NCBI GenBank assembly: GCA_902584685.1
Contig: CACIAP010000004.1
Span: forward strand, 1-64,000
Length of the DNA stretch: 64,000 bases
Reading direction: 5' to 3'
Origin: an uncultured Pelagibacteraceae bacterium
Lineage (GTDB): Bacteria > Pseudomonadota > Alphaproteobacteria > Pelagibacterales > Pelagibacteraceae
Below, in pieces: positions 33,921 to 45,523 of this stretch. A model generated the notes under the pieces. The model searched no databases. It saw nothing but the letters and a program-made list of their open reading frames with translations, and was not told the DNA's origin. The first letter of the stretch is position 1, and the number at the start of each line of letters is the position of its first letter. The translations under genes were made by a program, and so were the position numbers.

Positions 33921-34475
33921 ATGGCACTTTTAAAAACTCCAATATGTGATTTCGGTCTGAATGCAATAGATTTTAAGCTTAAATCAATTAATGGGGAATT
34001 ATTAACATTGAATAATGTCAAAGGCGCTAATGGGACTTTGATAATGTTTATTTGCAATCATTGCCCTTATGTAAAAGCGATAATAAGAGAACTTGCAGAT
34101 GATTGTGCAAAACTTAAAGAAGATGGCATTAATTCAGTTGCGATAATGTCAAATGATACCAAAAACTATCCTGAAGACTCTTTTGAAAATATGAAAAAGT
34201 TTTCTGATAGATATAATTTTTCATTTCCTTATTTAATTGATGAAACGCAAGAAATTGCAAAAAAATATGATGCCGTGTGTACACCAGACTTCTTTGGCTA
34301 CAACAAAAACCTTGAGCTCAATTACAGAGGAAGAATAAGAGAATTAAATGATTTAAAGCCTGTTGGTTCGGGTGACAGCGAATTGCTTAGATCAATGAAG
34401 TTAATTGCTAAAACTCAACAAGGTCCGAAAGAACAATATCCTAGTATGGGATGCAGTATAAAATGGTTTAAATAA
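33921..34475 (+). CDS. Thioredoxin-fold redoxin (AhpC/TSA-like)
   Basis: This 184-residue protein has a redoxin fold with a CNHC motif in FICNHCPYVKAI, followed by SVAIMSNDTKNYPEDSF and FPYLIDETQEIAKKYDAVCTPDFF. This matches the widespread cytosolic thioredoxin-family proteins annotated as redoxins, whose substrates are unknown. No signal peptide is visible. The last base of its stop overlaps the ATG of the glycosyltransferase gene. Confidence 0.85.
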   Translation: MALLKTPICDFGLNAIDFKLKSINGELLTLNNVKGANGTLIMFICNHCPYVKAIIRELADDCAKLKEDGINSVAIMSNDTKNYPEDSFENMKKFSDRYNFSFPYLIDETQEIAKKYDAVCTPDFFGYNKNLELNYRGRIRELNDLKPVGSGDSELLRSMKLIAKTQQGPKEQYPSMGCSIKWFK

Positions 34476-35563
34476 TGAATTTAATTATCACAAGAAGTTT
34501 TCCACCTGATGTTGGAGGTATGCAAAATCTTATGTTTGGCCTTACAAAATCACTGTCGGAACATATGATGGTTAAAGTATTTGCTGATGAACATTATCAG
34601 CAGGAAAAATTTGATGAAGACTTATCATTCTCAATTGAAAGAGTCGGAGGACCAAAAATCTTTAGAAAATTTAGAAAAGCTTCATTAATTAATAATTACC
34701 TACAAAAAAATACTAAAGTAAAAAATATCATCTCTGATCATTGGAAAAGTTTAGAAAATATAAATACAAAAATTAGAAAAACATGTCTTATTCACTCTAA
34801 AGAGATAAATCATAAAAAAGATTCTTTTCTTAATAAACGAGTTGTTAGAGTGTTAAACAACTGCGATCATATCATTGCAAATTCAAACTTCACAAAAAAC
34901 CTAGGTATTGAAATAGGTGTTAATGAGGAAAAAATCAAAGTTATTAACCCAGGTGTATTTCCAAGAGAAGAAATAAATCCAAAAATAGATGAAAAAATAT
35001 TAAAGAAACTTGAAGGAAAAGAGCCAAGACTAATTACTGTTGCTAGATTTGATAAAAGAAAAAATCATGAAAAAATAATTATGTCTTTGAGAAATTTGAA
35101 AGAAATTTACCCAAACATAATTTATATTTGTATTGGTCAAGGCGATACTTTGGAGTCTCAGAAAAAACTTATTAAAGAATTAAAACTTGAGAGTAATGTT
35201 TTGTTTTTGAAAAATTTATCTAAAGATGAAAAAAACTCTTACTTAAAAAATTCAAATGTTTTTGTTATGCCATCGATTTCTTATAAAAAATCTGTAGAGG
35301 GATTTGGAATTGTCTATGTTGAAGCTGCTCAATATGGAATTCCATCAATTGGTGGAAAGGTTGGTGGTGCGTCTGACGCAATTGTCAATAATGAAACTGG
35401 CCTTCTTTGTGATGGAAACAATTTAGATGAAATCTATCAAAGTTTAATTGATATATTGCAGAATAATAAATTCAAGGTTTTGGGAAAAAATGCAGAAGAA
35501 AATGCAAAAAAATTTCTTTGGTCAGAAATCTTAAAAAAATATTTAGAAATTTTAAAGAACTAA
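34475..35563 (+). CDS. Glycosyltransferase family 4
   Basis: This 362-residue GT-B enzyme has the N-terminal PPDVGGMQNLMFGL loop, TVARFDKRKNHEKII nucleotide-sugar domain motif, and the C-terminal SVEGFGIVYVEAAQYGIPSIGG segment with the EX7E pattern. It probably adds a sugar to lipopolysaccharide core or another envelope glycan. It overlaps the preceding redoxin gene by one base and the convergent GT9 gene by 12. Donor and acceptor are unknown. Confidence 0.9.
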   Translation: MNLIITRSFPPDVGGMQNLMFGLTKSLSEHMMVKVFADEHYQQEKFDEDLSFSIERVGGPKIFRKFRKASLINNYLQKNTKVKNIISDHWKSLENINTKIRKTCLIHSKEINHKKDSFLNKRVVRVLNNCDHIIANSNFTKNLGIEIGVNEEKIKVINPGVFPREEINPKIDEKILKKLEGKEPRLITVARFDKRKNHEKIIMSLRNLKEIYPNIIYICIGQGDTLESQKKLIKELKLESNVLFLKNLSKDEKNSYLKNSNVFVMPSISYKKSVEGFGIVYVEAAQYGIPSIGGKVGGASDAIVNNETGLLCDGNNLDEIYQSLIDILQNNKFKVLGKNAEENAKKFLWSEILKKYLEILKN

Positions 35564-36481
35564 TCTTTCAAAAACTTTCTCTGCACTTAAATTTTTCAAG
35601 TCGCTCACTTGAATTGCTTTGAAATTTTCCCTCTCAATACTTACTTTGTGAGCTGTAGTATGACTGCCAAACAACGACAGACCTTTAACATCCAAATGTG
35701 CTGCCATATGTGCAGGACCTGTATCATTAGCAACAACAAATTTACTTCTCTTTATTAAACCTGCAAGTTCCGAAATAGAAATAGCTTTATCTTCTTTTAG
35801 AATAGAAACAGCATCTAGCTTTTTGGCTTTTTCTATTTCATCAGGGCCAGGAGCTATCACTATTTTTAGATTAGGATGATTTTGTTTTATAAGTTTTATT
35901 AATTGATCGTAATATGGCCATTTCTTTTGCTGTAAATGCTCAGAGCAGAATGGAAATAACAATATATAATCAGATAAATTATATTTAGAAATAAGTTTAT
36001 CGATATTAGAACAAACCCAAGAAAAATCTGGCTTTAAAGTGTGAAATGTTTTTAAACCAGATATCTTTAATTGGTGATCAAATCTTTCTAATACTGGTTT
36101 TTTATCAAATTCTTTTTTAGTTTCATTTGCTGGAAGAGTAGTTTCTGAAGAAGACCATTTATAAGATCCTAAATTAGGAAATAAAATTTTTTTATAAAAT
36201 GAAGTCCTTGAGGAATTCTGTAGATCGTAGACCTTTGTAAACTTATTTTTTTTAATTTTTTTCATTAAAGAAAAAAGATATATCAAATTAAACCTGGACA
36301 ATCTTTTATCGACAATTACTTCTTTTATATTGGGATTTTTTTTAAAAAGATCTGAATATACGTGAGATGTTAATAAATAAATAAAATCATCTTTATGGTT
36401 GTCATAAATATCTTGAATTGCCCCACTCGCTTGAGCTATATCTCCTAGTGATCCATGCTTTATGATTAATATATTAGACAT
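35552..36481 (-). CDS. Glycosyltransferase family 9 (heptosyltransferase-like)
   Basis: This 309-residue GT9 member begins with NILIIKHGSLGDIAQASGAI, typical of LPS heptosyltransferases. VKGLSLFGSHTTAHK and FVVANDTGPAHMAAHL form the C-terminal ADP-sugar-binding site. It likely builds LPS core. It is divergent from the DUF6165 gene by 32 bases, and DUF6165 proteins frequently accompany such transferases. Confidence 0.9.
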   Translation of the reverse strand: MSNILIIKHGSLGDIAQASGAIQDIYDNHKDDFIYLLTSHVYSDLFKKNPNIKEVIVDKRLSRFNLIYLFSLMKKIKKNKFTKVYDLQNSSRTSFYKKILFPNLGSYKWSSSETTLPANETKKEFDKKPVLERFDHQLKISGLKTFHTLKPDFSWVCSNIDKLISKYNLSDYILLFPFCSEHLQQKKWPYYDQLIKLIKQNHPNLKIVIAPGPDEIEKAKKLDAVSILKEDKAISISELAGLIKRSKFVVANDTGPAHMAAHLDVKGLSLFGSHTTAHKVSIERENFKAIQVSDLKNLSAEKVFERLVL

Positions 36482-36903: not shown

Positions 36904-37944
36904 TTATTTATTTAGAGAAGATGCAAAATTCCAAGAACAATCAAAGCTTGGAATATAAACTCTATCTAAGGATGTATTTCCAAAACTTTTTTCAAAAAGA
37001 TTTAACCATTTATCAACTTGCTTAGGTTTTTTATCTTGGCTTCCAACTTGTGCAGTTATAGTTCCATTTGGTTTGAGAATTCTTTTTAAAGATTTGATAT
37101 TTTTTGCAGCTAAATCAATACAATACTGATCATCGTTTAGGTCTACATAAATTTTATCATACTTGTTGTCTTCAACTGATTTAATACTTTCAAATGCATC
37201 TCCCCATACACACTGCACATGATTTTTTGTTGTTGCTTTCTTACCTACCTTAGATAAATATTTTTCACACATTGTTACAACTTCGGGGTCTAACTCATAC
37301 CAATCAATTAATTTAAAACCTTTAGAAATACATTCTCTTGCAACTCCTCCATCCCCACCACCAATAATTGCAGTTTTATCATTTGATGGATTAAGTTTTA
37401 AACCAGAGTTAACAAATGTGGAGCTGTACAAGTGTTCATCATTTTCTGCCACTTGAAGTTCACCATCGATAAAAAGAGATTTACCAAACTGTTCTAAATC
37501 TAATATTTCAATATTTTGACCTACTTTTGAGGTAAAGTTTTCTAAAACATCTTTTACCATGTAGTATTTTTTTAAACCTGGTGAGCTATAAATATCGTCA
37601 TAATAACTTATGGTATCTCTATTAAACTCTTTTTTAACAATTCTTTTATGTTTGATTTCTTTTTTTAAAATATCATATGCAACATTAGGATTTACTTTTC
37701 CACACGTAAAAAAATCAAAACTTATAATTCCTCTTTCTGGGAAAGTATGAAAGCTAATGTGACTTTCTGCTAATAAGGCTACAAGAGTTAAACCTTGTGG
37801 TTCGAATTTATACTTTGAAATCTCTAGAACAGTTACCTTTGCCTTCTTTGATATCTTGTAGACTAGTTTTTCAAAAAACTTTGGTTCGTACTCTTTTTCA
37901 GTACCTATTATATCTAAAGTAACGTGCTCCCCAACTTTCGTCAT
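36904..37944 (-). CDS. speE: AdoMet decarboxylase - spermidine (aminopropyl)synthase fusion
   Basis: Two enzymes of polyamine synthesis are fused in 346 residues. Residues 1-115 are a prokaryotic AdoMet decarboxylase: the self-cleavage pair Glu60-Ser61 yields the pyruvoyl group, followed by H66 and C81 in SHISFHTFPERG...FFTCG. Residues 120-346 are an aminopropyltransferase with GGGDGG at 195-200, ELDPEV at 217-222 and the acidic pair D268 and D271. Decarboxylated AdoMet could pass straight to the second domain, giving a polyamine and 5'-methylthioadenosine. The usual DSSDPxGP gate after the catalytic Asp reads DLNDDQYC, so the amine acceptor may not be putrescine. It is the last gene of an operon recycling that by-product. 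Confidence 0.88.
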   Translation of the reverse strand: MTKVGEHVTLDIIGTEKEYEPKFFEKLVYKISKKAKVTVLEISKYKFEPQGLTLVALLAESHISFHTFPERGIISFDFFTCGKVNPNVAYDILKKEIKHKRIVKKEFNRDTISYYDDIYSSPGLKKYYMVKDVLENFTSKVGQNIEILDLEQFGKSLFIDGELQVAENDEHLYSSTFVNSGLKLNPSNDKTAIIGGGDGGVARECISKGFKLIDWYELDPEVVTMCEKYLSKVGKKATTKNHVQCVWGDAFESIKSVEDNKYDKIYVDLNDDQYCIDLAAKNIKSLKRILKPNGTITAQVGSQDKKPKQVDKWLNLFEKSFGNTSLDRVYIPSFDCSWNFASSLNK

Positions 37945-37950
37945 AAAAAG

Positions 37951-38598
37951 TTATCCTTTTTTATAGTTTTTAACTTTTTCCAAAATAATATCCATCTCAC
38001 TTGATGAAAGAATTTTAGGTTCTCCTAACTTTATTGCATTTATGTATTGATGGCAAATATTTTCAACTTCTTCTGCAAGTTCGAAAGCCGAGTTCAAGTT
38101 ATCCCCATAAGCAACTTGACCGTGATTAGACATCAAGCATGCTTTTCTATTTTGTAATGCCTCAATAATATTGTCAGATAGTTCTTGTGTTCCAAAAGTT
38201 GCATACTTTGCACACTTTATGTTGTCTCCTCCAGCTAATGCTATCATGTAATGAAAAGCTGGAATGTCTTTATTGTGTGCAGATACAGCTGTTGCGTGTG
38301 GTGAATGAGCATGAACGACGGCTTTTGCATCAGCCTTCTTTAAATAAATATCTTTATGAAATCTCCATTCCGAAGAAGGCTGCAAACCTTTTTCATCATA
38401 TCTCCCCTCTAAAGATACAAAGACGATATCATCAGCTTTTAAACTGTCGTATTTTTTGCCTGATGGAGTAATTAAAAACCCCTCTTCATTATTATTCTGA
38501 GCTTTAAGTGAAATATTTCCTGATCTTAACGGAGATAAATTTGTACTATTTAGTTTTTGTGCAAATTTTATTATTTCTTCTCTACTCTTAACGTCCAT
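37951..38598 (-). CDS. Class II aldolase, fuculose-phosphate-aldolase-like (probable 5-(methylthio)ribulose-1-phosphate aldolase)
   Basis: This 215-residue Zn-dependent aldolase/adducin protein closely follows the FucA pattern: RSGNISLK, PSSEWRFH with catalytic E77, HAHSPH giving Zn ligands H96 and H98, NHG giving H159, and HYMIALAGG and YATFGTQELS segments. It lies 6 bases upstream of the fusion gene and after mtnA, so its likely substrate is methylthioribulose 1-phosphate (or the 5-deoxy analogue), giving DHAP and a two-carbon aldehyde. The alternative MtnB dehydratase is less similar, and no mtnC or mtnD is seen nearby. The function is an inference from context and FucA-type residues. Confidence 0.75.
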   Translation of the reverse strand: MDVKSREEIIKFAQKLNSTNLSPLRSGNISLKAQNNNEEGFLITPSGKKYDSLKADDIVFVSLEGRYDEKGLQPSSEWRFHKDIYLKKADAKAVVHAHSPHATAVSAHNKDIPAFHYMIALAGGDNIKCAKYATFGTQELSDNIIEALQNRKACLMSNHGQVAYGDNLNSAFELAEEVENICHQYINAIKLGEPKILSSSEMDIILEKVKNYKKG

Positions 38599-38911
38599 AA
38601 TTTTTTAAATATTTTAAAAATAAATACCCAAAAATTAGACCTACGCCTATTAGAATATACTGGTAAAGCTTTAATAATAAAAACTGTGGTGGAAGCTCAC
38701 TTTCATAAGGGTTCTGCATAAAAAAGTTTTTTGAACCGTCTTCATACAAATCAACAGGTCCAATAACTAAATAAATTCCATAAATTGCAATATAAATACA
38801 TGGTGCTAAAGAAATATAAATTAATGTCTTATTATTCTTAACAATACTTAACCAGTTAGCTGAAACTCCAACTAATAGAAGACAAACAAGTGATAAAATA
38901 AGTGGGTTCAT
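38588..38911 (-). CDS. Small three-helix membrane protein within the MTA operon
   Basis: I do not recognise this 107-residue protein. Three hydrophobic segments are visible, about residues 4-22, 30-53 and 82-101, separated by short polar loops; a conserved-looking YEDGSKNFFMQNPYESELPP loop joins the last two. It overlaps mtnA by 4 bases (ATGA) and the aldolase gene by 11, so it is firmly part of the operon. A role in moving a pathway intermediate or the volatile methylthio product across the membrane is possible but unsupported. Confidence 0.75.
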   Translation of the reverse strand: MNPLILSLVCLLLVGVSANWLSIVKNNKTLIYISLAPCIYIAIYGIYLVIGPVDLYEDGSKNFFMQNPYESELPPQFLLLKLYQYILIGVGLIFGYLFLKYLKNYGR

Positions 38912-39978
38912 TTAAATAAATTTTTTAATCCTTTTTCTGATGCTTCACAAATACCTTTTTCTGTTATTAAACCAGTTATATATTTTGCTGGTGTAACATC
39001 AAATGCTAAATTCATAGCCTTACTTTTATTTGGGTATATCTGTACTTTTTTTACTTTTCCATTTTCATCAACCCCTTCAATTTTTGATAACTCATCTGAA
39101 CTTCTTTCTTCAATTGGAATATCTTTAGAATTTTTAATTTTCCAATCAATAGTTGAACTTGGTAATGCTACATAAAATGGAACATTATTATCTTTTGCAG
39201 CGAGTGCTTTTAGATAAGTTCCTACTTTATTACATACATCGCCATTAGATAAAGTGCGGTCAGTTCCAACTATACACATATCAACTTGTCCCTTTTGCAT
39301 TAAAATTCCACCAGTGTTATCTGCAATAATTGTATTTTTAATCCCCTCTTCATTTAATTCATACGATGTTAAGTTTGCTCCTTGGTTTCTAGGTCTTGTT
39401 TCATCTGCCCAAACATGAACAGGAATTCCTTTCTTGTGTGCATGATAAATTGGTGATGTAGCTGTGCCCCAATTAATTGTTGCAAGCCATCCAGCGTTAC
39501 AGTGAGTTAAGATATTTACTGTATCTTTTTTTTTATTATAAATTTCCTCAATAATCTTAAGACCATTCAATCCTATGTTTTCACAAAACTTTATATCTTC
39601 TTCACAAATTTCTTTTGCTTCGTTAAGTGCTATTTCTAAAATCTTATTACTATTAACACCATATAATTTATTAATCATTCTATCTGCAGCCCATTTTAAA
39701 TTAATTGCAGTGGGTCTTGATTTTATCAAGTCATCAGCTGATTTTTTTAAATAAGATTGATCATTATTTTCTAATATTGCTAATACTAAACCATATGCAG
39801 CCGTAGCACCTATCAATGGGGCGCCTCTTACTTCCATTGTTTTAATGGCATTGATTGCTTCTTTAACAGTTTTTAAATCTTTTATTACGAATTTATGTGG
39901 AAGCTTTGTTTGATCAATTATTTTTACTACATTGTTTTCAAACCAGATTGTGCGGTGTTCTTTACCTTCAATTTTCAT
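38908..39978 (-). CDS. mtnA: Methylthioribose-1-phosphate isomerase
   Basis: This 356-residue eIF2B-alpha-like isomerase converts 5-methylthioribose 1-phosphate to methylthioribulose 1-phosphate. Motifs include KTMEVRGAPLIGATAAYGL, ILTHCNAGWLATINWGTA with the catalytic Cys, VWADETRPRNQGA, and the catalytic Asp in CIVGTDRTLSNGDVCNKVGTYLKA. Overlaps of 4 bases with mtnP before it and the membrane-protein gene after it show tight coupling. Confidence 0.96.
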   Translation of the reverse strand: MKIEGKEHRTIWFENNVVKIIDQTKLPHKFVIKDLKTVKEAINAIKTMEVRGAPLIGATAAYGLVLAILENNDQSYLKKSADDLIKSRPTAINLKWAADRMINKLYGVNSNKILEIALNEAKEICEEDIKFCENIGLNGLKIIEEIYNKKKDTVNILTHCNAGWLATINWGTATSPIYHAHKKGIPVHVWADETRPRNQGANLTSYELNEEGIKNTIIADNTGGILMQKGQVDMCIVGTDRTLSNGDVCNKVGTYLKALAAKDNNVPFYVALPSSTIDWKIKNSKDIPIEERSSDELSKIEGVDENGKVKKVQIYPNKSKAMNLAFDVTPAKYITGLITEKGICEASEKGLKNLFK

Positions 39979-40847
39979 TTATTTAAAACTCTACCTGCAA
40001 CTGTTCTTAATTTATCTTTGGTTTTTTGTGTTCTTTTTTCTGGTGCCGTTATAATGGCTACATCTAAACAATTATTAGTTGGATCTTTGGGATCAATATG
40101 TTTTTCAAAATTTTCTATAAGATTTTTAATCATATTCTTAGCCTTTGCGGCATTACCTAAAAGAACTTTTATTACTTGCTGAACATCAACATTTTCATGG
40201 TCTGGATGCCAGCAATCATAATCTGTAACCATAGACACAGACGCGTATCTTATTTCAGCCTCTCTAGCTAATTTTGCCTCTGGCATGTTGGTCATTCCAA
40301 TTACATCTGCTTTCCAAGATCTATACAAATTGGACTCTGCTAAAGTAGAAAACTGAGGGCCTTCCATAACTATATAAGTGCCTCCTCTTTGATAATCTAT
40401 TTTTTCCTTTTTGATAGAATCTTCGCAAGCATTCATTAATCCAGTTGAGGTTGGGTGTGCCATTGATACATGAGCAACAATTTCATCTTCAAAAAAAGTT
40501 TTATTTCTCACAAAAGTTCTATCAATAAATTGATCAACTATTACAAATTTTCCTGGAGGTAAATTTTCTTTAAGAGATCCTACAGCAGAAATAGAGACAA
40601 TGTCAGTAACCTCAAGTTGTTTAAGAGCATCAATATTTGCTCTGAAATTTATATTGGATGGATTAATAAAATGACCTCTACCGTGTCTTGGCAAAAAATA
40701 AACCTCTTTATTTTTGTAATTAGTTTTTATAATTTTATCTGAAGGTTCACCCCAGGGTGTATTTATGTCTAATAACTCTCTGTCTTTAAATTCCTCAACA
40801 TCATACAATCCACTTCCACCGATAATAGCCAATTTATTGTTTGCCAT
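39975..40847 (-). CDS. mtnP: 5'-methylthioadenosine phosphorylase
   Basis: This 290-residue purine-nucleoside-phosphorylase-family enzyme splits methylthioadenosine with phosphate into adenine and 5-methylthioribose 1-phosphate. It shows LAIIGGSGLYDVEEF, the phosphate loop LPRHGRGH, TYIVMEGPQFSTLAES and IGMTNMPEAKLAREAEI, then the base-site Asp in TDYDCWHPDHE. It is the first gene of the five-gene minus-strand operon and lies 41 bases from the divergent apt gene, whose product reuses the released adenine. Confidence 0.95.
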   Translation of the reverse strand: MANNKLAIIGGSGLYDVEEFKDRELLDINTPWGEPSDKIIKTNYKNKEVYFLPRHGRGHFINPSNINFRANIDALKQLEVTDIVSISAVGSLKENLPPGKFVIVDQFIDRTFVRNKTFFEDEIVAHVSMAHPTSTGLMNACEDSIKKEKIDYQRGGTYIVMEGPQFSTLAESNLYRSWKADVIGMTNMPEAKLAREAEIRYASVSMVTDYDCWHPDHENVDVQQVIKVLLGNAAKAKNMIKNLIENFEKHIDPKDPTNNCLDVAIITAPEKRTQKTKDKLRTVAGRVLNK

Positions 40848-40888
40848 ATTTAAAAGATAGTTTATTTAATAATATAACGCAAATTTAA

Positions 40889-41416
40889 ATGGATTTAAAA
40901 AAGTTTATAAGATCAATCCCTGATTATCCAAAGAAGGGGATTTTATTTAGGGACATTACAACTTTAATTAAAGACGAAAAAGCTTTTGAGGAAACAATTA
41001 ATCAAATAGTTGAGAGATCAACAAAATTTAAATTCAATAAAATCGCAGCAATAGAGTCAAGGGGTTTTGTTTTTGCATCTGCTGTTTCATACATTCTTAA
41101 AAAACCTTTCATAATGTTAAGAAAAAAAAATAAATTACCTGCTGAGACTCACTCAGTAGATTTTGAACTAGAGTATGGAACTGCAACTATTGAGGTGCAC
41201 AGAGACTCGATAAATGAAAATGATACTGTTTTAATTATTGATGATTTAATTGCGACTGGGGGCACGGCTGAGGCAGCCTCAAGACTAATTGAAATTTCAA
41301 AAGGAAAAGTTAGCGCATTTATATTTGTTATAAATTTATTTGACTTAGGCGGTTCTGATAAATTAATAAAAAAAGGTTTTAAAGTTGAGAATCTTATTGA
41401 ATTCCCTGGTCATTAA
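40889..41416 (+). CDS. apt: Adenine phosphoribosyltransferase
   Basis: This 175-residue type I phosphoribosyltransferase joins adenine with PRPP to give AMP. It starts DLKKFIRSIPDYPKKGILFRDITTL, has AIESRGFVFAS, LRKKNKLPAET and the PRPP-binding VLIIDDLIATGGTA. Divergent placement beside mtnP makes the pairing logical: adenine from methylthioadenosine is salvaged. Its stop codon is interlocked (TTAA) with that of the convergent GT2 gene. Confidence 0.96.
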   Translation: MDLKKFIRSIPDYPKKGILFRDITTLIKDEKAFEETINQIVERSTKFKFNKIAAIESRGFVFASAVSYILKKPFIMLRKKNKLPAETHSVDFELEYGTATIEVHRDSINENDTVLIIDDLIATGGTAEAASRLIEISKGKVSAFIFVINLFDLGGSDKLIKKGFKVENLIEFPGH

Positions 41417-42276
41417 TTTATCAATGGCCTAAACCAAGATTGTCTACCCAACAAAGCATTAAAAATTCCTGACATTCTCATCTTATAGATATTTCTTTTT
41501 TTATTTAACATGAGCGTGTAAATTAAATATTTTAAAAAATTTACAAATAAATTTCCCAAACCTAAAGAAATCGAAATAAAAATTCCTCGATGTTTTTTAT
41601 TAAAATAAAGTTTTGACCACATCCAATGCCAGTTTCTTGAAAGCTCAATTTCTTCACTATATTTATCATCAACAGCTTTGGCTCCTAAATGATGAATCTT
41701 TGAGTTTTTTATTATAAATATTTTCCCATTTTTTTTTCTTGCTCTTAAACACAAATCCACATTTTCTAAATACATAAAAATTTTTTCATCAAAAAAAATA
41801 TTATCAGAAAAATTTTTTTTATTTATAATCATGGAGTAACCATCAATCTCTTCAACGTTCTTAATTATGTTGTTATCAATTGACTCATTGCTTTTATTTA
41901 TCTTGTAATTTGGAAAACTTGGATTGTCTGATATCGGTGAAAGAATAGCAAAATTTTTCAAATTAATAATTGCCCTATTAATATTTGAAAAGGTATCTTT
42001 GTTTAACAATACATCTGGATTTAAGACATAAACATATTGGGTATTAGATTTAATAATACCAAGATTATTGGCAGCTCCCATACCTATATTTGTGGATAAA
42101 ATTACTTTAGTGTTATCATAATTTTGCTCTAATTCTTTTTTTAATTCTTCATCAGATGAATTTTCAATTATTAATTTTTGAAAATTTTTCGGTAGAGAAT
42201 TTAAACAATTGTAGATTACATTTCTGCTGTTAAATGTGACTATTACAAAGGTTAGATTATTACTTGTAAATTCCAT
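41413..42276 (-). CDS. Glycosyltransferase family 2 (rhamnosyltransferase-like)
   Basis: This 287-residue GT-A enzyme has FVIVTFNSRNVIYNCLNSL, an ENSSDEELK strand, the IGMGAANNLGI motif, YVLNPDVLL with the DxD-like Asp, and IFMYLENVDLCLRARKK for acceptor/catalysis. The GAANNxGI and NPD pattern is common in rhamnosyltransferases (WbbL type), and divergent dTDP-rhamnose-like genes start 49 bases away, supporting rhamnose transfer. The C-terminus is basic and may associate with the membrane. Confidence 0.85.
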   Translation of the reverse strand: MEFTSNNLTFVIVTFNSRNVIYNCLNSLPKNFQKLIIENSSDEELKKELEQNYDNTKVILSTNIGMGAANNLGIIKSNTQYVYVLNPDVLLNKDTFSNINRAIINLKNFAILSPISDNPSFPNYKINKSNESIDNNIIKNVEEIDGYSMIINKKNFSDNIFFDEKIFMYLENVDLCLRARKKNGKIFIIKNSKIHHLGAKAVDDKYSEEIELSRNWHWMWSKLYFNKKHRGIFISISLGLGNLFVNFLKYLIYTLMLNKKRNIYKMRMSGIFNALLGRQSWFRPLIN

Positions 42277-42325
42277 GTGATAATGAAGTATACTTAAAAT
42301 AGCTATTGTTGTAAAAAAAAAAGTA

Positions 42326-43348
42326 ATGAAAAAAATTATTGTAACTGGTGGTTTAGGATTTATTGGCAGTAATCTAATAAAACTATTAATAAAGAAAAAA
42401 TATTTTATAATTAATGTTGATAAAATTAGTTATGCATCAAATTTTTATAATACAAAAGACTTTTCAAATAAAAAAAACTATAAATTTATTAAGCTAGACA
42501 TTAATAATAAATCAAAATTAAACAAAATTTTAAAGTTATATAAACCTATCGCTATATTTAATTTAGCCGCTGAAACACATGTTGATAGGTCTATTGATGC
42601 TCCTTCAGAGTTTATAAGAAGTAATATATTTGGTATATTCAATTTATTAGAAGCATTCAGGGAATATTCAAAAAAAAATAAAAAAACTAAACTAATTCAT
42701 ATTTCGACTGATGAAGTTTACGGGGATGTATTGAGGGGTCGAAGTAAAGAGACTGATCCATATAGACCAAGTTCGCCTTATGCTGCATCAAAAGCTTCAT
42801 CAGATCATTTGGTGTATTCTTACGTTAGAACTTTTAAGCTAAATGCAATTATAACGAACTGTTCTAATAATTACGGACCTCACCAACATCCTGAAAAACT
42901 AATTCCAAAACTAATTTATAATATAATTAATGATAAGCCTCTTCCTTTATATGGAAAAGGAAAAAATTCTCGAGAGTGGATATTTGTAGACGATCATTGT
43001 GAAGCTTTGTTTAAAGTATTTAAAAAAGGATCCAAAGGTGAATTTTATAATATTGGGTCTAGCATAAACAGTAGCAATTTAGATATTGCAAAACTTCTTA
43101 TTGATATTGCTAAAAAAAAAATAAGGTTAGGTAATAAAGTAAAGATAAAATTTGTGAAAGATAGACCTGGCCATGATTTAAGATACGCATTAGATAATAA
43201 AAAAATTTTAAAAAAACTTAAATGGAAATCCAGAATAAATCTTAAAAAAGGTTTAGAAAATACTTTTAGGTGGTATTTTGAAAATATGAAATACTATACT
43301 TCTTTAAAAAAAAAGGATATCACACAGAGACTTGGATTAGTAAAATGA
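42326..43348 (+). CDS. rfbB: dTDP-glucose 4,6-dehydratase
   Basis: This 340-residue extended SDR has the NAD motif VTGGLGFIGSNLIKLL, the LAAETHVDRSIDAP segment, the active-site STDEVYGDV and YAASKASSDHLV (YxxxK), and NNYGPHQHPEKLIPK. It turns dTDP-glucose into the 4-keto-6-deoxy sugar. Its stop overlaps the rfbA start by four bases. Lysine and AT content are high even for this genome. Confidence 0.95.
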   Translation: MKKIIVTGGLGFIGSNLIKLLIKKKYFIINVDKISYASNFYNTKDFSNKKNYKFIKLDINNKSKLNKILKLYKPIAIFNLAAETHVDRSIDAPSEFIRSNIFGIFNLLEAFREYSKKNKKTKLIHISTDEVYGDVLRGRSKETDPYRPSSPYAASKASSDHLVYSYVRTFKLNAIITNCSNNYGPHQHPEKLIPKLIYNIINDKPLPLYGKGKNSREWIFVDDHCEALFKVFKKGSKGEFYNIGSSINSSNLDIAKLLIDIAKKKIRLGNKVKIKFVKDRPGHDLRYALDNKKILKKLKWKSRINLKKGLENTFRWYFENMKYYTSLKKKDITQRLGLVK

Positions 43349-44211
43349 TAAACAAAGCAATTATTTTAGCTGGGGGGATGGGAACTCGAATGAGTCCATT
43401 AACAAAAGCAGTAAATAAACAGTTACTTCCAATCTATGATAAGCCTTTAATTTTTTATCCTCTTTCAATTTTGATGTTGGCAAAAATAAAGGACATATTA
43501 ATAATAGTTAATAAAGGACAATTAAATCAGTATAAAAAAATTTTACCAGATGGAAGACATCTTGGTATCAATATCACATATAAAGAACAAAATTACCCAA
43601 AAGGTCTTCCTGATGCATTCCTTCTGGGAGAAAAATTTATTAACAACAAAAATGTTGCATTAATTCTTGGAGATAATTTTTTCTACGGGCAAAACTTAAC
43701 TGCGAAACTGATTAATTGTACGAAAATTAAAAGTGGTGCAAAAGTAATTTTACATAAAGTAATTAAACCAGAGTTATTTGGAGTAGCCAAAACTTCTAAA
43801 TCAGGAAAAATAACTACAATAAAAGAAAAACCAAAAAAATTCATTTCTGATTTAGCTATCACAGGGTTATATTTTTTTGATAATAAAGTTGTTGAATATG
43901 CAAAAAAACTCAAACCTTCATCAAGAAATGAATTGGAGATCACTGACTTATTAAAAGTCTATTTAAGAAAAAAAAAATTAACATCAGACATACTTGGACG
44001 AGGTGGCGCTTGGTTAGATACCGGATCTATAGATGACTTTTATAAAACAAGTGCTTTTGTCTCAGCGATTGAAAATAGACAAGGTTTTAAGATTGCTTGT
44101 ATCGAAGAAATCGCCTTTAATAATAAGTGGATTGGGAGAAAAGAAATTTCAAAAGCGATCCAATTTTATGGTAAATGCGATTATACCAATTATTTAAAAA
44201 AATTAATTTAA
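43345..44211 (+). CDS. rfbA: Glucose-1-phosphate thymidylyltransferase
   Basis: This 288-residue nucleotidyltransferase makes dTDP-glucose. It contains AIILAGGMGTRMSPLTKAVNKQLLPIYDKPLI in order, ILGDNFFYG with metal-binding Asp, IKEKPKKF, and GGAWLDTGSIDDF. Compared with a typical G-T-R-L-P-L motif it has Met for Leu after GTR, a mild variation. Order rfbB-rfbA-rfbC-rfbD-like with overlaps implies one operon. Confidence 0.95.
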   Translation: MINKAIILAGGMGTRMSPLTKAVNKQLLPIYDKPLIFYPLSILMLAKIKDILIIVNKGQLNQYKKILPDGRHLGINITYKEQNYPKGLPDAFLLGEKFINNKNVALILGDNFFYGQNLTAKLINCTKIKSGAKVILHKVIKPELFGVAKTSKSGKITTIKEKPKKFISDLAITGLYFFDNKVVEYAKKLKPSSRNELEITDLLKVYLRKKKLTSDILGRGGAWLDTGSIDDFYKTSAFVSAIENRQGFKIACIEEIAFNNKWIGRKEISKAIQFYGKCDYTNYLKKLI

Positions 44212-44214
44212 TTA

Positions 44215-44742
44215 ATGAAGAAAATAAAAACCAAATTTAAAGATTTATTTATTGTTCAAGCAAAAATTATTAAAGATAATAGAGGATGGTTAAAAGAGGA
44301 ATTTAAAAAAAAATTTGTTAAAAGAAGCCTAATTTTTACAGTAGTATCAAATTCTAAAAAAAATGTTTTAAGAGGATTGCATATGCAAACTAGAAATTCT
44401 CAAGATAAGTTTCTATCAGTTGTTAAAGGGAGAATACTTGATGTTGCTGTGGATTTAAGAAAGAACTCTAAAACATTTGGTAAACATTTTAAAGTTATTC
44501 TTAGTGAAAAAAATGGTAAACATTTATTTGTTCCGAGAGGATTTGCACACGGCATCCTAGGTTTAGACAAAGAAAATATCCTTCATTATGCATGTTCAAA
44601 TTACAGGGATCCAAGAAGTGAAGTTTCAATAAAATGGAACGATTCTGACTTAAAAATAAATTGGGGAACAAAAAAACCAATTATTTCAAAAAAGGATAAA
44701 TTTGCTCTTTCTTTAAAAGATTTTAAAAAAATTAGTAAATGA
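44215..44742 (+). CDS. rfbC: dTDP-4-dehydrorhamnose 3,5-epimerase family protein
   Basis: This 175-residue cupin-fold epimerase has DNRGWLKEEF, NVLRGLHMQTR with the catalytic His, GRILDVAVDLRKNS, and FVPRGFAHGILGL. It epimerises C3 and C5 (or C3 only) of the 4-keto-6-deoxy sugar. MQTR replaces the common QxP after the His, so product stereochemistry could differ from L-rhamnose. It starts 3 bases after rfbA and overlaps the next gene by four. Confidence 0.9.
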   Translation: MKKIKTKFKDLFIVQAKIIKDNRGWLKEEFKKKFVKRSLIFTVVSNSKKNVLRGLHMQTRNSQDKFLSVVKGRILDVAVDLRKNSKTFGKHFKVILSEKNGKHLFVPRGFAHGILGLDKENILHYACSNYRDPRSEVSIKWNDSDLKINWGTKKPIISKKDKFALSLKDFKKISK

Positions 44743-45443
44743 AAAAAATAATTTTTACTGGTGGAAGTGGAAAATTTGGTAAAATATTCAGGAAATTTAA
44801 TTTAAATAAAAAAAATATTTATTACCCTTCATCAAAAACTTTTGATGTAACGAATTTTAAGAGAATGGAGAAATTTATTAGGAAAATAAAGCCAAAATTT
44901 ATTATTCATGCTGCTGCAATTTCAAGACCTATGGATCTTCACGAAAAAAAAGTTATGAAAAGTATTAGTACAAACATTATTGGTACTTCAAACATTGCAA
45001 ATCTTTGTCATAAATATAAAATAAAACTTATATACTTCTCTACAAACTACGTATACCCGTCTAAAATAGGAAATTATAAAGAAGATCACCCAGTATTTCC
45101 AATTAATAATTATGCATGGTCTAAACTTGGAGGAGAGTGTGCGGTACAAATGTTAAAAGACTCTTTAATCTTAAGAATATGTATGACTGAAAAACCTTTT
45201 TTATATAAATATGCTTACACAAACTTAAAAACAAATTTCATGTTTCATGAAGACTTAGCAAAAGTTTTTTTTAGATTAATAAACAAGAAAGGTATAATCA
45301 ATGTGGGTGGTCCTGCACAGTCTGTTTACAACTTTGCAAAGAAGGAAAATAAAAAGATTAAAAAAAAAGTTTTAAAAACTGGAAAAAACAGTCTGCCATT
45401 AAAATCTTCTATGAATATTTCTAAATTTAAAAAAATGTTCTAG
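44739..45443 (+). CDS. Sugar-nucleotide reductase, dTDP-4-dehydrorhamnose reductase-like (short)
   Basis: This 234-residue extended SDR has the Rossmann motif IIFTGGSGKFGKIF, FIIHAAAISRPMDLHE and YFSTNYVYPS, with a YAWSK catalytic tetrad segment. Position as fourth gene of the dTDP-sugar operon suggests the final reductase (RmlD-like). At 234 residues it is about 50 shorter than usual RmlD, the shortening being in the substrate-binding part, so another reductase or a degenerate function is possible. It ends 3 bases before the tRNA-Met 3' end. Confidence 0.75.
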   Translation: MKKIIFTGGSGKFGKIFRKFNLNKKNIYYPSSKTFDVTNFKRMEKFIRKIKPKFIIHAAAISRPMDLHEKKVMKSISTNIIGTSNIANLCHKYKIKLIYFSTNYVYPSKIGNYKEDHPVFPINNYAWSKLGGECAVQMLKDSLILRICMTEKPFLYKYAYTNLKTNFMFHEDLAKVFFRLINKKGIINVGGPAQSVYNFAKKENKKIKKKVLKTGKNSLPLKSSMNISKFKKMF

Positions 45444-45446
45444 ATT

Positions 45447-45523
45447 TGGTAGCGGGAAGTGGGATCGAACCACTGACCTCGGGCTTATGAGTCCCGCGCT
45501 CTAACCAACTGAGCTACCCCGCC
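45447..45523 (-). tRNA. tRNA-Met (CAT), elongator type
   Basis: The 77-base minus-strand sequence folds as a tRNA: acceptor GGCGGGG pairs (with terminal G-U pairs) with TCCCGCT, the D-arm is AGCTCAGTTGGTTAGAGC-like, the anticodon loop is CTCATAA with CAT, and the T-arm holds GGTTCGATCC. CCA is encoded. The G1 start and loop are of the elongator type, not the C1-A72 initiator. The anticodon stem has an unusual A31/G39 opposition. Confidence 0.95.

Follow-up and report, generated by a model that had tools for sequence, protein, structure and literature searches.

An operon that probably joins polyamine synthesis to a dihydroxyacetone phosphate shunt-like disposal of methylthioadenosine in SAR11 bacteria

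What becomes of the methylthioadenosine (MTA) that a SAR11 bacterium would release while making polyamines? The question is raised by a five-gene operon and a divergent neighboring gene in a 64,000-nucleotide stretch of DNA (the window) at the start of contig CACIAP010000004.1 from an uncultured Pelagibacteraceae bacterium (assembly GCA_902584685.1). The operon encodes an MTA phosphorylase (mtnP), a methylthioribose-1-phosphate isomerase (mtnA), a hydrophobic protein of 107 amino acids, a FucA-type class II aldolase, and a fusion of S-adenosylmethionine decarboxylase (AdoMetDC) with an aminopropyltransferase (speDE). It probably joins polyamine synthesis to the disposal of its own by-product, MTA, by a route similar to the dihydroxyacetone phosphate (DHAP) shunt. 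SpeDE would decarboxylate S-adenosylmethionine, use putrescine or spermidine as the acceptor of aminopropyl groups, and free MTA, which MtnP would split into adenine and methylthioribose 1-phosphate. The adenine would be turned into AMP by the product of the divergent gene (apt), whereas methylthioribose 1-phosphate would be isomerized by MtnA to methylthioribulose 1-phosphate and then cleaved by the aldolase into DHAP, which would pass to central metabolism, and (methylthio)acetaldehyde, which would be removed by a dehydrogenase encoded outside the operon. In sister lineages, a fusion of an aldolase with a short-chain dehydrogenase (aldolase/SDR) takes the place of the aldolase and would add the aldehyde step, or a nucleosidase-like protein would replace the whole branch.

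On the minus strand, the genes follow one another in the order mtnP, mtnA, the gene for the 107-residue protein, the aldolase gene, and speDE, with overlaps of 4, 4, and 11 bases and then a gap of 6 bases (Table 1), and the stop codon of speDE abuts a convergent DUF6165 gene (gap 0). A preliminary description of the window had given this order with the same coordinates, identifications, and spacings, and had placed apt divergently at 41 bases from mtnP, all of which agreed with the open reading frames (ORFs), the spacings, and the family scores. MtnP scored 303 bits with TIGR01694 (cut-off 274.85) and 438.2 bits with NF006492 (cut-off 437), Apt scored 196 bits with TIGR01090 (cut-off 186), and MtnA, which is up to 96% identical to that of the nearest named loci, scored 424 bits with TIGR00512 (cut-off 279). 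The N-terminal part of SpeDE matched AdoMetDC (TIGR03330, 96 bits, cut-off 75.65, residues 4-109; PF02675 at residues 7-109) and the C-terminal part matched Spermine_synth (PF01564, 77 bits, cut-off 22.9, residues 170-338), and the PDB matches were to AdoMetDC at residues 4-112 and to thermospermine and spermidine synthases within residues 114-341. The second domain scored below the cut-offs of the NCBI spermidine synthase models (95 vs. 250 bits for TIGR00417; 124 vs. 260 bits for NF002010). PF02675, PF17284, and PF01564 were all above cut-off in this single ORF, the combination that marks the SAR11 fusion of AdoMetDC and aminopropyltransferase. Judging by the gene spacing, mtnP to speDE would form a single transcript. 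Between positions 36400 and 41500, promoter-like sites numbered 16, fewer than the mean of 28 in shuffled sequences, and the search gave no terminator-like site; the gap between mtnP and apt held one promoter-like match of 9 of 12 positions (40899-40871, minus strand), a class of match that was not above shuffles.

Table 1. Features of the operon and its divergent neighbor in the window
Feature	Positions	Strand	Size, family or basis
mtnP, methylthioadenosine phosphorylase (MTA + phosphate -> adenine + methylthioribose 1-phosphate)	39975..40847	-	290 amino acids; TIGR01694, NF006492
mtnA, methylthioribose-1-phosphate isomerase	38908..39978	-	356 amino acids; TIGR00512
Hydrophobic protein of 107 amino acids, clade-specific accessory	38588..38911	-	three hydrophobic stretches
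Class II aldolase of the FucA type; predicted substrate methylthioribulose 1-phosphate (and/or 5-deoxyribulose 1-phosphate)	37951..38598	-	PF00596
speDE, S-adenosylmethionine decarboxylase/aminopropyltransferase fusion, MTA-producing	36904..37944	-	346 amino acids; PF02675 + PF01564
apt, adenine phosphoribosyltransferase, divergent; would salvage adenine released by MtnP	40889..41416	+	TIGR01090
Intergenic region of 41 bases separating mtnP from apt, possible site of divergent promoters	40848..40888	.	sequence

The distribution of these genes was followed in 147 genomes of the order (105 of them with completeness of 90% or more and contamination of 5% or less), which were searched for six proteins and four families, and in 80 named SAR11 loci that were fetched with mtnA as the best 80 of 168 relatives. 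Orthologues of the FucA-type aldolase were counted at 141 bits or more (64 genomes; next score 53) and those of aldolase/SDR at 716 bits or more (16 genomes; next score 74), whereas all 11 nucleosidase matches were taken, one of them a 36-residue fragment. The speDE gene was present in 84 genomes, all from one family (84 of 94) and none from the other family, f2 (0 of 53), when three weak f2 matches to the decarboxylase part alone were left out. Exactly one MTA module accompanied speDE in 83 of these 84 genomes, namely the FucA-type aldolase in 64, aldolase/SDR in 13, and the nucleosidase in six, and no genome in the whole sample contained two. Each of the 83 had its aldolase or nucleosidase gene adjoining speDE on the same contig, with 4 to 141 bases between the matches. 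The remaining genome (G109) carried mtnP and speDE on different contigs, speDE lying 142 bases from a contig start. Among 30 aldolase loci from the order, speDE followed the aldolase gene in every case and mtnA preceded it in 29; the exception (G036) begins within the aldolase gene at a contig end and so has no mtnA. Similarly, 79 of the 80 genomes with mtnA contained one of the two aldolases, and in the other one (G144, with mtnP-mtnA) the contig ends approximately 20 bases past the expected end of an aldolase gene, assuming the layout of locus L041. None of the 11 nucleosidase genomes had a match to mtnA or mtnP.

The dependence also appeared from the other side. All 64 genomes with the FucA-type aldolase contained speDE, and eight of the ten genomes of the same family that lacked speDE also lacked mtnA, mtnP, both aldolases, and the nucleosidase, the exceptions being G144 and a genome with the nucleosidase (G009). 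In f2, 46 of the 53 genomes had no module, three had aldolase/SDR, and four had the nucleosidase, all without speDE; therefore, the MTA genes of that family do not depend on speDE. If the 64 and 13 aldolase modules were placed independently among the 84 speDE genomes, the probability of their mutual avoidance would be approximately 1e-10, although a tree is the better test because the genomes are related. The named loci gave a similar picture, with 73 of the FucA type, six with aldolase/SDR, and one ending inside mtnA. Without the 107-residue protein, the operon has the usual arrangement of the family, and the functional linkage of speDE and the MTA modules is well supported.

A quick maximum-likelihood tree (LG+G4, branch support by SH-aLRT only) was built from 118 distinct fusion proteins of 138 usable loci out of 150; the other 12 were excluded because no single module was clear or because most of speDE was missing. 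On this tree, the three module labels needed 15 changes, compared with a mean of 18.4 for shuffled labels, and well-supported branches forced seven changes for the FucA type, six for aldolase/SDR, and two for the nucleosidase. The exchange is seen most directly in a close pair of loci, L041 (G088, aldolase/SDR) and L042 (G074, FucA type), which differ only in the aldolase cassette and whose flanking DNA shows identities of 81.6% (2.5 kb on one side) and 89.4% (13.3 kb on the other side). In the speDE-bearing family, aldolase/SDR ran opposite to mtnA or speDE in all 16 loci mapped, so that only the FucA-type version forms one compact operon; in two f2 genomes (L049 and L050), aldolase/SDR follows apt-mtnP-mtnA on one strand. 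In the relatives examined, the predicted MTA-disposal part is swapped among three alternatives and is hardly ever absent.

The window aldolase belongs to the class II aldolases (PF00596, 175 bits) and is encoded alongside mtnP and mtnA, as in the DHAP shunt. With NF005984, a subfamily model for L-fuculose-phosphate aldolase, it scored 207 bits, under the cut-off of 264, and is consequently not called FucA by NCBI's own rule; its scores with the FucA model TIGR01086 (186 bits, cut-off 400) and the MtnB model TIGR03328 (75 bits, cut-off 137) were also below cut-off. It is 45% identical to Escherichia coli FucA over 210 residues, and its PDB match was chain 6btd (E 1.5e-44), which we take to be DrdA. 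In 105 distinct SAR11 orthologues, the residues equivalent to E73, H92, H94, H155, and Y113 of FucA were invariant and Y209 was kept in 104, with one gap; these residues have functional roles in FucA. The position of Thr26 in FucA was Arg in all 105 orthologues, and that of Phe206 was Ala in 55, Val in 29, Phe in eight, and Ile in six. It is tempting to read these substitutions as a sign of a wider aldehyde pocket in the SAR11 enzyme than in FucA. The pocket of DrdA is reported to be larger than that of FucA (PMC6079011). An E. coli record considered as a possible Ald2 encodes FucA.

Other routes for MTA were also searched for. None of the 147 genomes had a match above cut-off to MtnB (TIGR03328), MtnC (TIGR01691), or ARD/MtnD (PF03079), or to RuBisCO-like proteins (PF00016), the mark of the MTA-isoprenoid shunt, and classical methionine salvage and the isoprenoid shunt were both rejected on these grounds. 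The same searches passed cut-off in two (MtnB), one (MtnC), two (ARD), and five (RuBisCO) of 14 control genomes. Matches under the cut-offs occurred for MtnB in 117 genomes, for MtnC in 55, and for ARD in one (G007, 21.8 bits). The weak MtnB matches were mostly the operon aldolase or another class II aldolase family of approximately 240-260 residues, and the window genome itself had a single PF00596 match (this genome is 70% complete). The best scores with the MtnB model, 90.7 and 88.3 bits, belonged to second class II aldolases (G120:C2:29693-30253 and G046:C1:332583-333104), which outscore the operon aldolase with that model and still lie below 137. The family of approximately 240-260 residues is about 25% identical and widespread in the order (e.g., G042:C3:120219-120797, G142:C9:5234-5740, and 46 of 53 f2 genomes), and it occurs even in f2 genomes without MTA genes. 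The preliminary description had read the aldolase as FucA-like rather than MtnB-like, which the 207 against 75 bits confirm, had seen no mtnC or mtnD nearby, and had suggested a genome search for mtnB, mtnC, and mtnD, which now extends this absence to the whole sample. Of its pathway, the aldolase-type, DHAP-shunt-like route in place of MtnBCD and the coupling to the polyamine fusion enzyme are supported by the comparison, the former also in view of the replacement by aldolase/SDR, whereas a place for the membrane protein in the core is not supported. DHAP and adenine could be recovered from MTA by this route; nothing was found that shows a recovery of the methylthio group.

The replacement module, aldolase/SDR (677 amino acids), scored 908 bits with the bifunctional aldolase/short-chain dehydrogenase model NF006192 (cut-off 639) and 446 bits with RhaD_aldol-ADH (TIGR02632), below the cut-off of 567.75 that would place it with RhaEW. 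In 77 sequences, 17 from SAR11 and 60 from other Alphaproteobacteria, the two HxH histidines, the YxxxK tyrosine and lysine, the outer two glycines of the nucleotide-binding motif TGxxxGxG, and an Asp that follows the second strand were kept without exception, whereas the middle glycine of TGxxxGxG was variable and the likely catalytic Ser was Thr in one sequence; we assume that these motifs have their usual roles. Among the 385 genomes searched in the class, 68 contained a relative (E up to 1e-100), and 60 of the 68 loci were fetched, with eight left out. In 37 of the 60, mtnA and/or mtnP lay on the same strand within approximately 4 kb (both genes in 18, mtnA in 14, and mtnP in five), and several of these clusters in other Alphaproteobacteria carried apt between mtnP and mtnA. 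The other 23 loci contained neither mtnA nor mtnP and no mtnK, six of them with less than 2 kb of upstream sequence. Plasmid matches comprised 739 records; in five of them (rhizobial-type), chosen for their annotation, aldolase/SDR always stood by a sugar ABC transporter and mtnK, with mtnA coming next in all three that were extended. On plasmids of Mariluticola and Ensifer (L252:7702-13001; L253:7610-12501), the mtnK-mtnA genes near aldolase/SDR precede split transketolase-type genes and a gene for a RuBisCO-like protein, so that one locus combines two possible routes for the same intermediate.

RhaEW of Chloroflexus joins an aldolase to an NAD-dependent lactaldehyde dehydrogenase and yields DHAP and lactate with NAD; it is reported to be inactive with NADH, to give neither product without NAD, and to have orthologues that always lie in rha loci (PMC3870299). 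By analogy, aldolase/SDR would oxidize (methylthio)acetaldehyde to (methylthio)acetate. Equilibrium constants of aldol cleavages of this kind are typically near 1e-4 (PMC6079011), and for this reason removal of the aldehyde matters. We suggest, tentatively and with somewhat less than even confidence, that aldolase/SDR may be an unrecognized enzyme of the DHAP shunt that cleaves methylthioribulose 1-phosphate, oxidizes the aldehyde with NAD to (methylthio)acetate rather than methylthioethanol, and so pulls an unfavorable cleavage; SAR11 polyamine synthesis would thereby be coupled to an obligatory outflow of a small methylthio compound whose identity is set by the module. The third module, a nucleosidase-like protein of 174 amino acids (58 bits with TIGR01704, below the cut-off of 73.8), was found at L053:4820-5344 and in ten further genomes, and in five mapped loci without mtnP-mtnA-aldolase its gene lies between apt and speDE.

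Several other explanations of the locus need to be weighed. It is possible, if rather unlikely, that MtnP, MtnA, and the aldolase mainly dispose of 5'-deoxyadenosine from radical S-adenosylmethionine enzymes by cleaving 5-deoxyribulose 1-phosphate into DHAP and acetaldehyde, as DrdA does, with the adjacency of speDE being secondary or both by-products being served. The match of the window aldolase to 6btd, taken to be DrdA, points in this direction, as do the three f2 genomes that have mtnA and aldolase/SDR without speDE. Furthermore, DrdA of Bacillus thuringiensis is the FucA-like aldolase of a kinase-isomerase-aldolase trio and acts on 5-deoxyribulose 1-phosphate (PMC6079011), and the DHAP shunt of E. 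coli takes both by-products (PMC10986504). However, the presence of a module tracks speDE, both in the 83 of 84 speDE genomes that have one and in the eight of ten non-speDE relatives that lack every part, and no FucA-type genome was without speDE, which favors MTA as the by-product served. That the aldolase is instead a true L-fuculose (or other sugar) phosphate aldolase, in the operon by chance, is improbable: its identity to E. coli FucA and the sugar kinases beside its homologues on three opened plasmid records would fit, whereas the operon contains no kinase and no isomerase other than MtnA (fucose pathway genes were not searched for), the link between aldolase and mtnA is strict, and the enzyme is exchanged in the same place with aldolase/SDR, which is itself linked to mtnA or mtnP in other Alphaproteobacteria.

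Mere inheritance of gene order without functional coupling is highly unlikely. Most of the operon genomes are close relatives and streamlined genomes keep their order, yet the modules changed 15 times on the speDE tree (at least seven of them forced, for the FucA type) and stood beside speDE each time, one cassette was cleanly swapped between close relatives, the parts are absent together, and unrelated genes have been inserted between module genes. Barely plausible is a reading of the class II aldolase-fold protein as methylthioribulose-1-phosphate dehydratase (MtnB) in a truncated methionine salvage; the fold family is the same and the MtnB model gave 75 bits, but this lies below the cut-off and far below the score with the FucA model, the positions of Glu73 and Tyr113 of FucA are conserved, MtnC and ARD were above cut-off in none of the genomes, and a protein of RhaEW architecture is the replacement in 13 speDE genomes.

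Disposal of MTA from polyamine synthesis remains the preferred explanation, and a number of points weigh against it. The window genome is 70% complete in 24 contigs, and we infer all reactions of its own proteins, as well as the fate of the methylthio aldehyde, from sequence comparison. FucA-type aldolases serve several sugars; homologues of the window aldolase occur on 603 plasmid records, and three annotated ones that were opened place it beside FGGY sugar kinases and in no case beside mtnA. The structure model of the aldolase is poor (predicted local distance difference test, pLDDT, 63.5) and gives no structural support, and no aldehyde dehydrogenase was identified for the FucA-type genomes. 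In the 16 mapped loci, the opposite strand of aldolase/SDR excludes a shared transcript for that step; support is weak for 62 of the 115 inner branches of the speDE tree, and the genomes, being related, do not count as independent. In addition, the aldolase may instead act on 5-deoxyribulose 1-phosphate, the substrate of DrdA (PMC6079011), or accept both compounds, and SAR11 SpeE has been proposed by Noell et al. to run also in reverse (PMC8437039).

The 107-residue protein had no Pfam or NCBIfam match at E 0.001, and its structure model is mainly helical and of low confidence (pLDDT 69.5). It was present in only 22 of the 80 named loci, always directly after mtnA (21 of the FucA type and one with aldolase/SDR), so that a core role for it in the operon is not borne out. 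Relatives were found after mtnA (68% identical; L107) and also after a sulfatase gene (56% identical; L041, L042, and L061). In other loci, the slot between mtnA and the aldolase gene was empty or held another short ORF or unrelated genes; an ORF of approximately 60-67 residues with a hydrophobic start occupied it in L058, L059, L060, L062, and L063. The protein is regarded as lineage-specific cargo, and a function as the core transporter of the pathway was rejected in view of its restricted occurrence, the other arrangements of its relatives, and the low-confidence model. The gaps between mtnP and mtnA and between mtnA and the aldolase gene are insertion spots for unrelated genes, around which the MTA genes persist (L033:2506-3438; L058:4826-6860; L071:4337-5314; L041:5008-13981; L043:3199-3861). 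The inserts include alpha/beta hydrolase-like genes, a DegT aminotransferase with an epimerase, asparaginase II, a gene on the opposite strand, and a sulfatase with genes that look TRAP-transporter-like by eye.

In many relatives (L033:7724-9001 and many of L034-L072), speDE is followed downstream by an amino-acid-type ABC transporter that includes permease-like genes and a binding protein of the lysine/arginine/ornithine-like type (TIGR01096, 232 bits, below the cut-off of 256). This transporter is missing from the window and from L051, a close relative, where the DUF6165 gene comes directly after speDE. The operon is flanked (34475-36481 and 41413-45443) by surface-polysaccharide-type genes, GT9 and GT2 by Pfam, with further glycosyltransferase and nucleotide-sugar genes around it as judged by eye, and a tRNA-Met gene lies nearby at 45447-45523.

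If the pathway operates as proposed, each round of polyamine synthesis is predicted to send a methylthio group through one of three exits, and strains would differ in the exit. The question of MTA sulfur in SAR11 thus becomes assayable on single purified enzymes and on module-typed cultured strains supplied with labeled MTA. The comparison further points to a role for some members of a family that is named only "bifunctional aldolase/short-chain dehydrogenase"; were aldolase/SDR an enzyme of the DHAP shunt, SAR11 could be the source of an unmeasured flux of dissolved organic sulfur. The preliminary description had regarded the coupling to a polyamine enzyme as undescribed, and in the open-licence literature no paper was found that joins SAR11, a FucA-type aldolase, and speDE, or aldolase/SDR and methylthioribulose. 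Earlier work covers the gene trio (PMC6079011) as well as the DHAP shunt (PMC5893883, PMC10986504) and has characterized the SAR11 fusion enzyme (PMC11107197); what is new, as far as that literature shows, is the coupling in one operon, the exchange of modules, and the proposed part of aldolase/SDR in MTA metabolism. The main text on SAR11 polyamine use names MTA once, as a figure abbreviation, in the portions consulted (PMC8437039).

Among known systems, the AdoMetDC-aminopropyltransferase fusions of Pelagibacter HTCC1062 and HTCC7211, which are active in E. coli and form spermidine and spermine/thermospermine, have the same domain order and come from the same host group as the window SpeDE, although the relevant parts of that report treat the enzyme and not the operon or MTA (PMC11107197). 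The nucleosidase module resembles MTA/SAH nucleosidase (MtnN/Pfs) and lies beside speDE, but the SAR11 protein is smaller and falls below the TIGR01704 cut-off. Aldolase/SDR shares its domain architecture with RhaEW and differs from it in its SAR11 neighbors, mtnA and speDE (rhamnose genes were not searched for). Three-gene clusters of a phosphorylase or kinase, an MtnA-like isomerase, and a FucA-like aldolase are reported from six phyla, and this set, which includes the DrdA trio, is shared with the SAR11 operon; the role reported for it is the disposal of 5-deoxyribose, and the sections concerned mention no polyamine gene (PMC6079011). The closest counterpart is the DHAP shunt, which was shown with MtnP, MtnA, and Ald2 in Rhodopseudomonas palustris (PMC5893883) and which proceeds through MtnP, or Pfs and MtnK, followed by MtnA and Ald2, in Rhodospirillum rubrum, R. 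palustris, and some E. coli (PMC5893883, PMC10986504). SAR11 resembles these bacteria in having MtnP and MtnA together with a class II aldolase that would yield DHAP and (methylthio)acetaldehyde, without MtnBCD, and the window encodes the MTA phosphorylase, MtnA, and an aldolase-type class II aldolase together. In contrast to the known shunt, the SAR11 operon includes the MTA-producing speDE, and its aldolase is exchanged in sister lineages.

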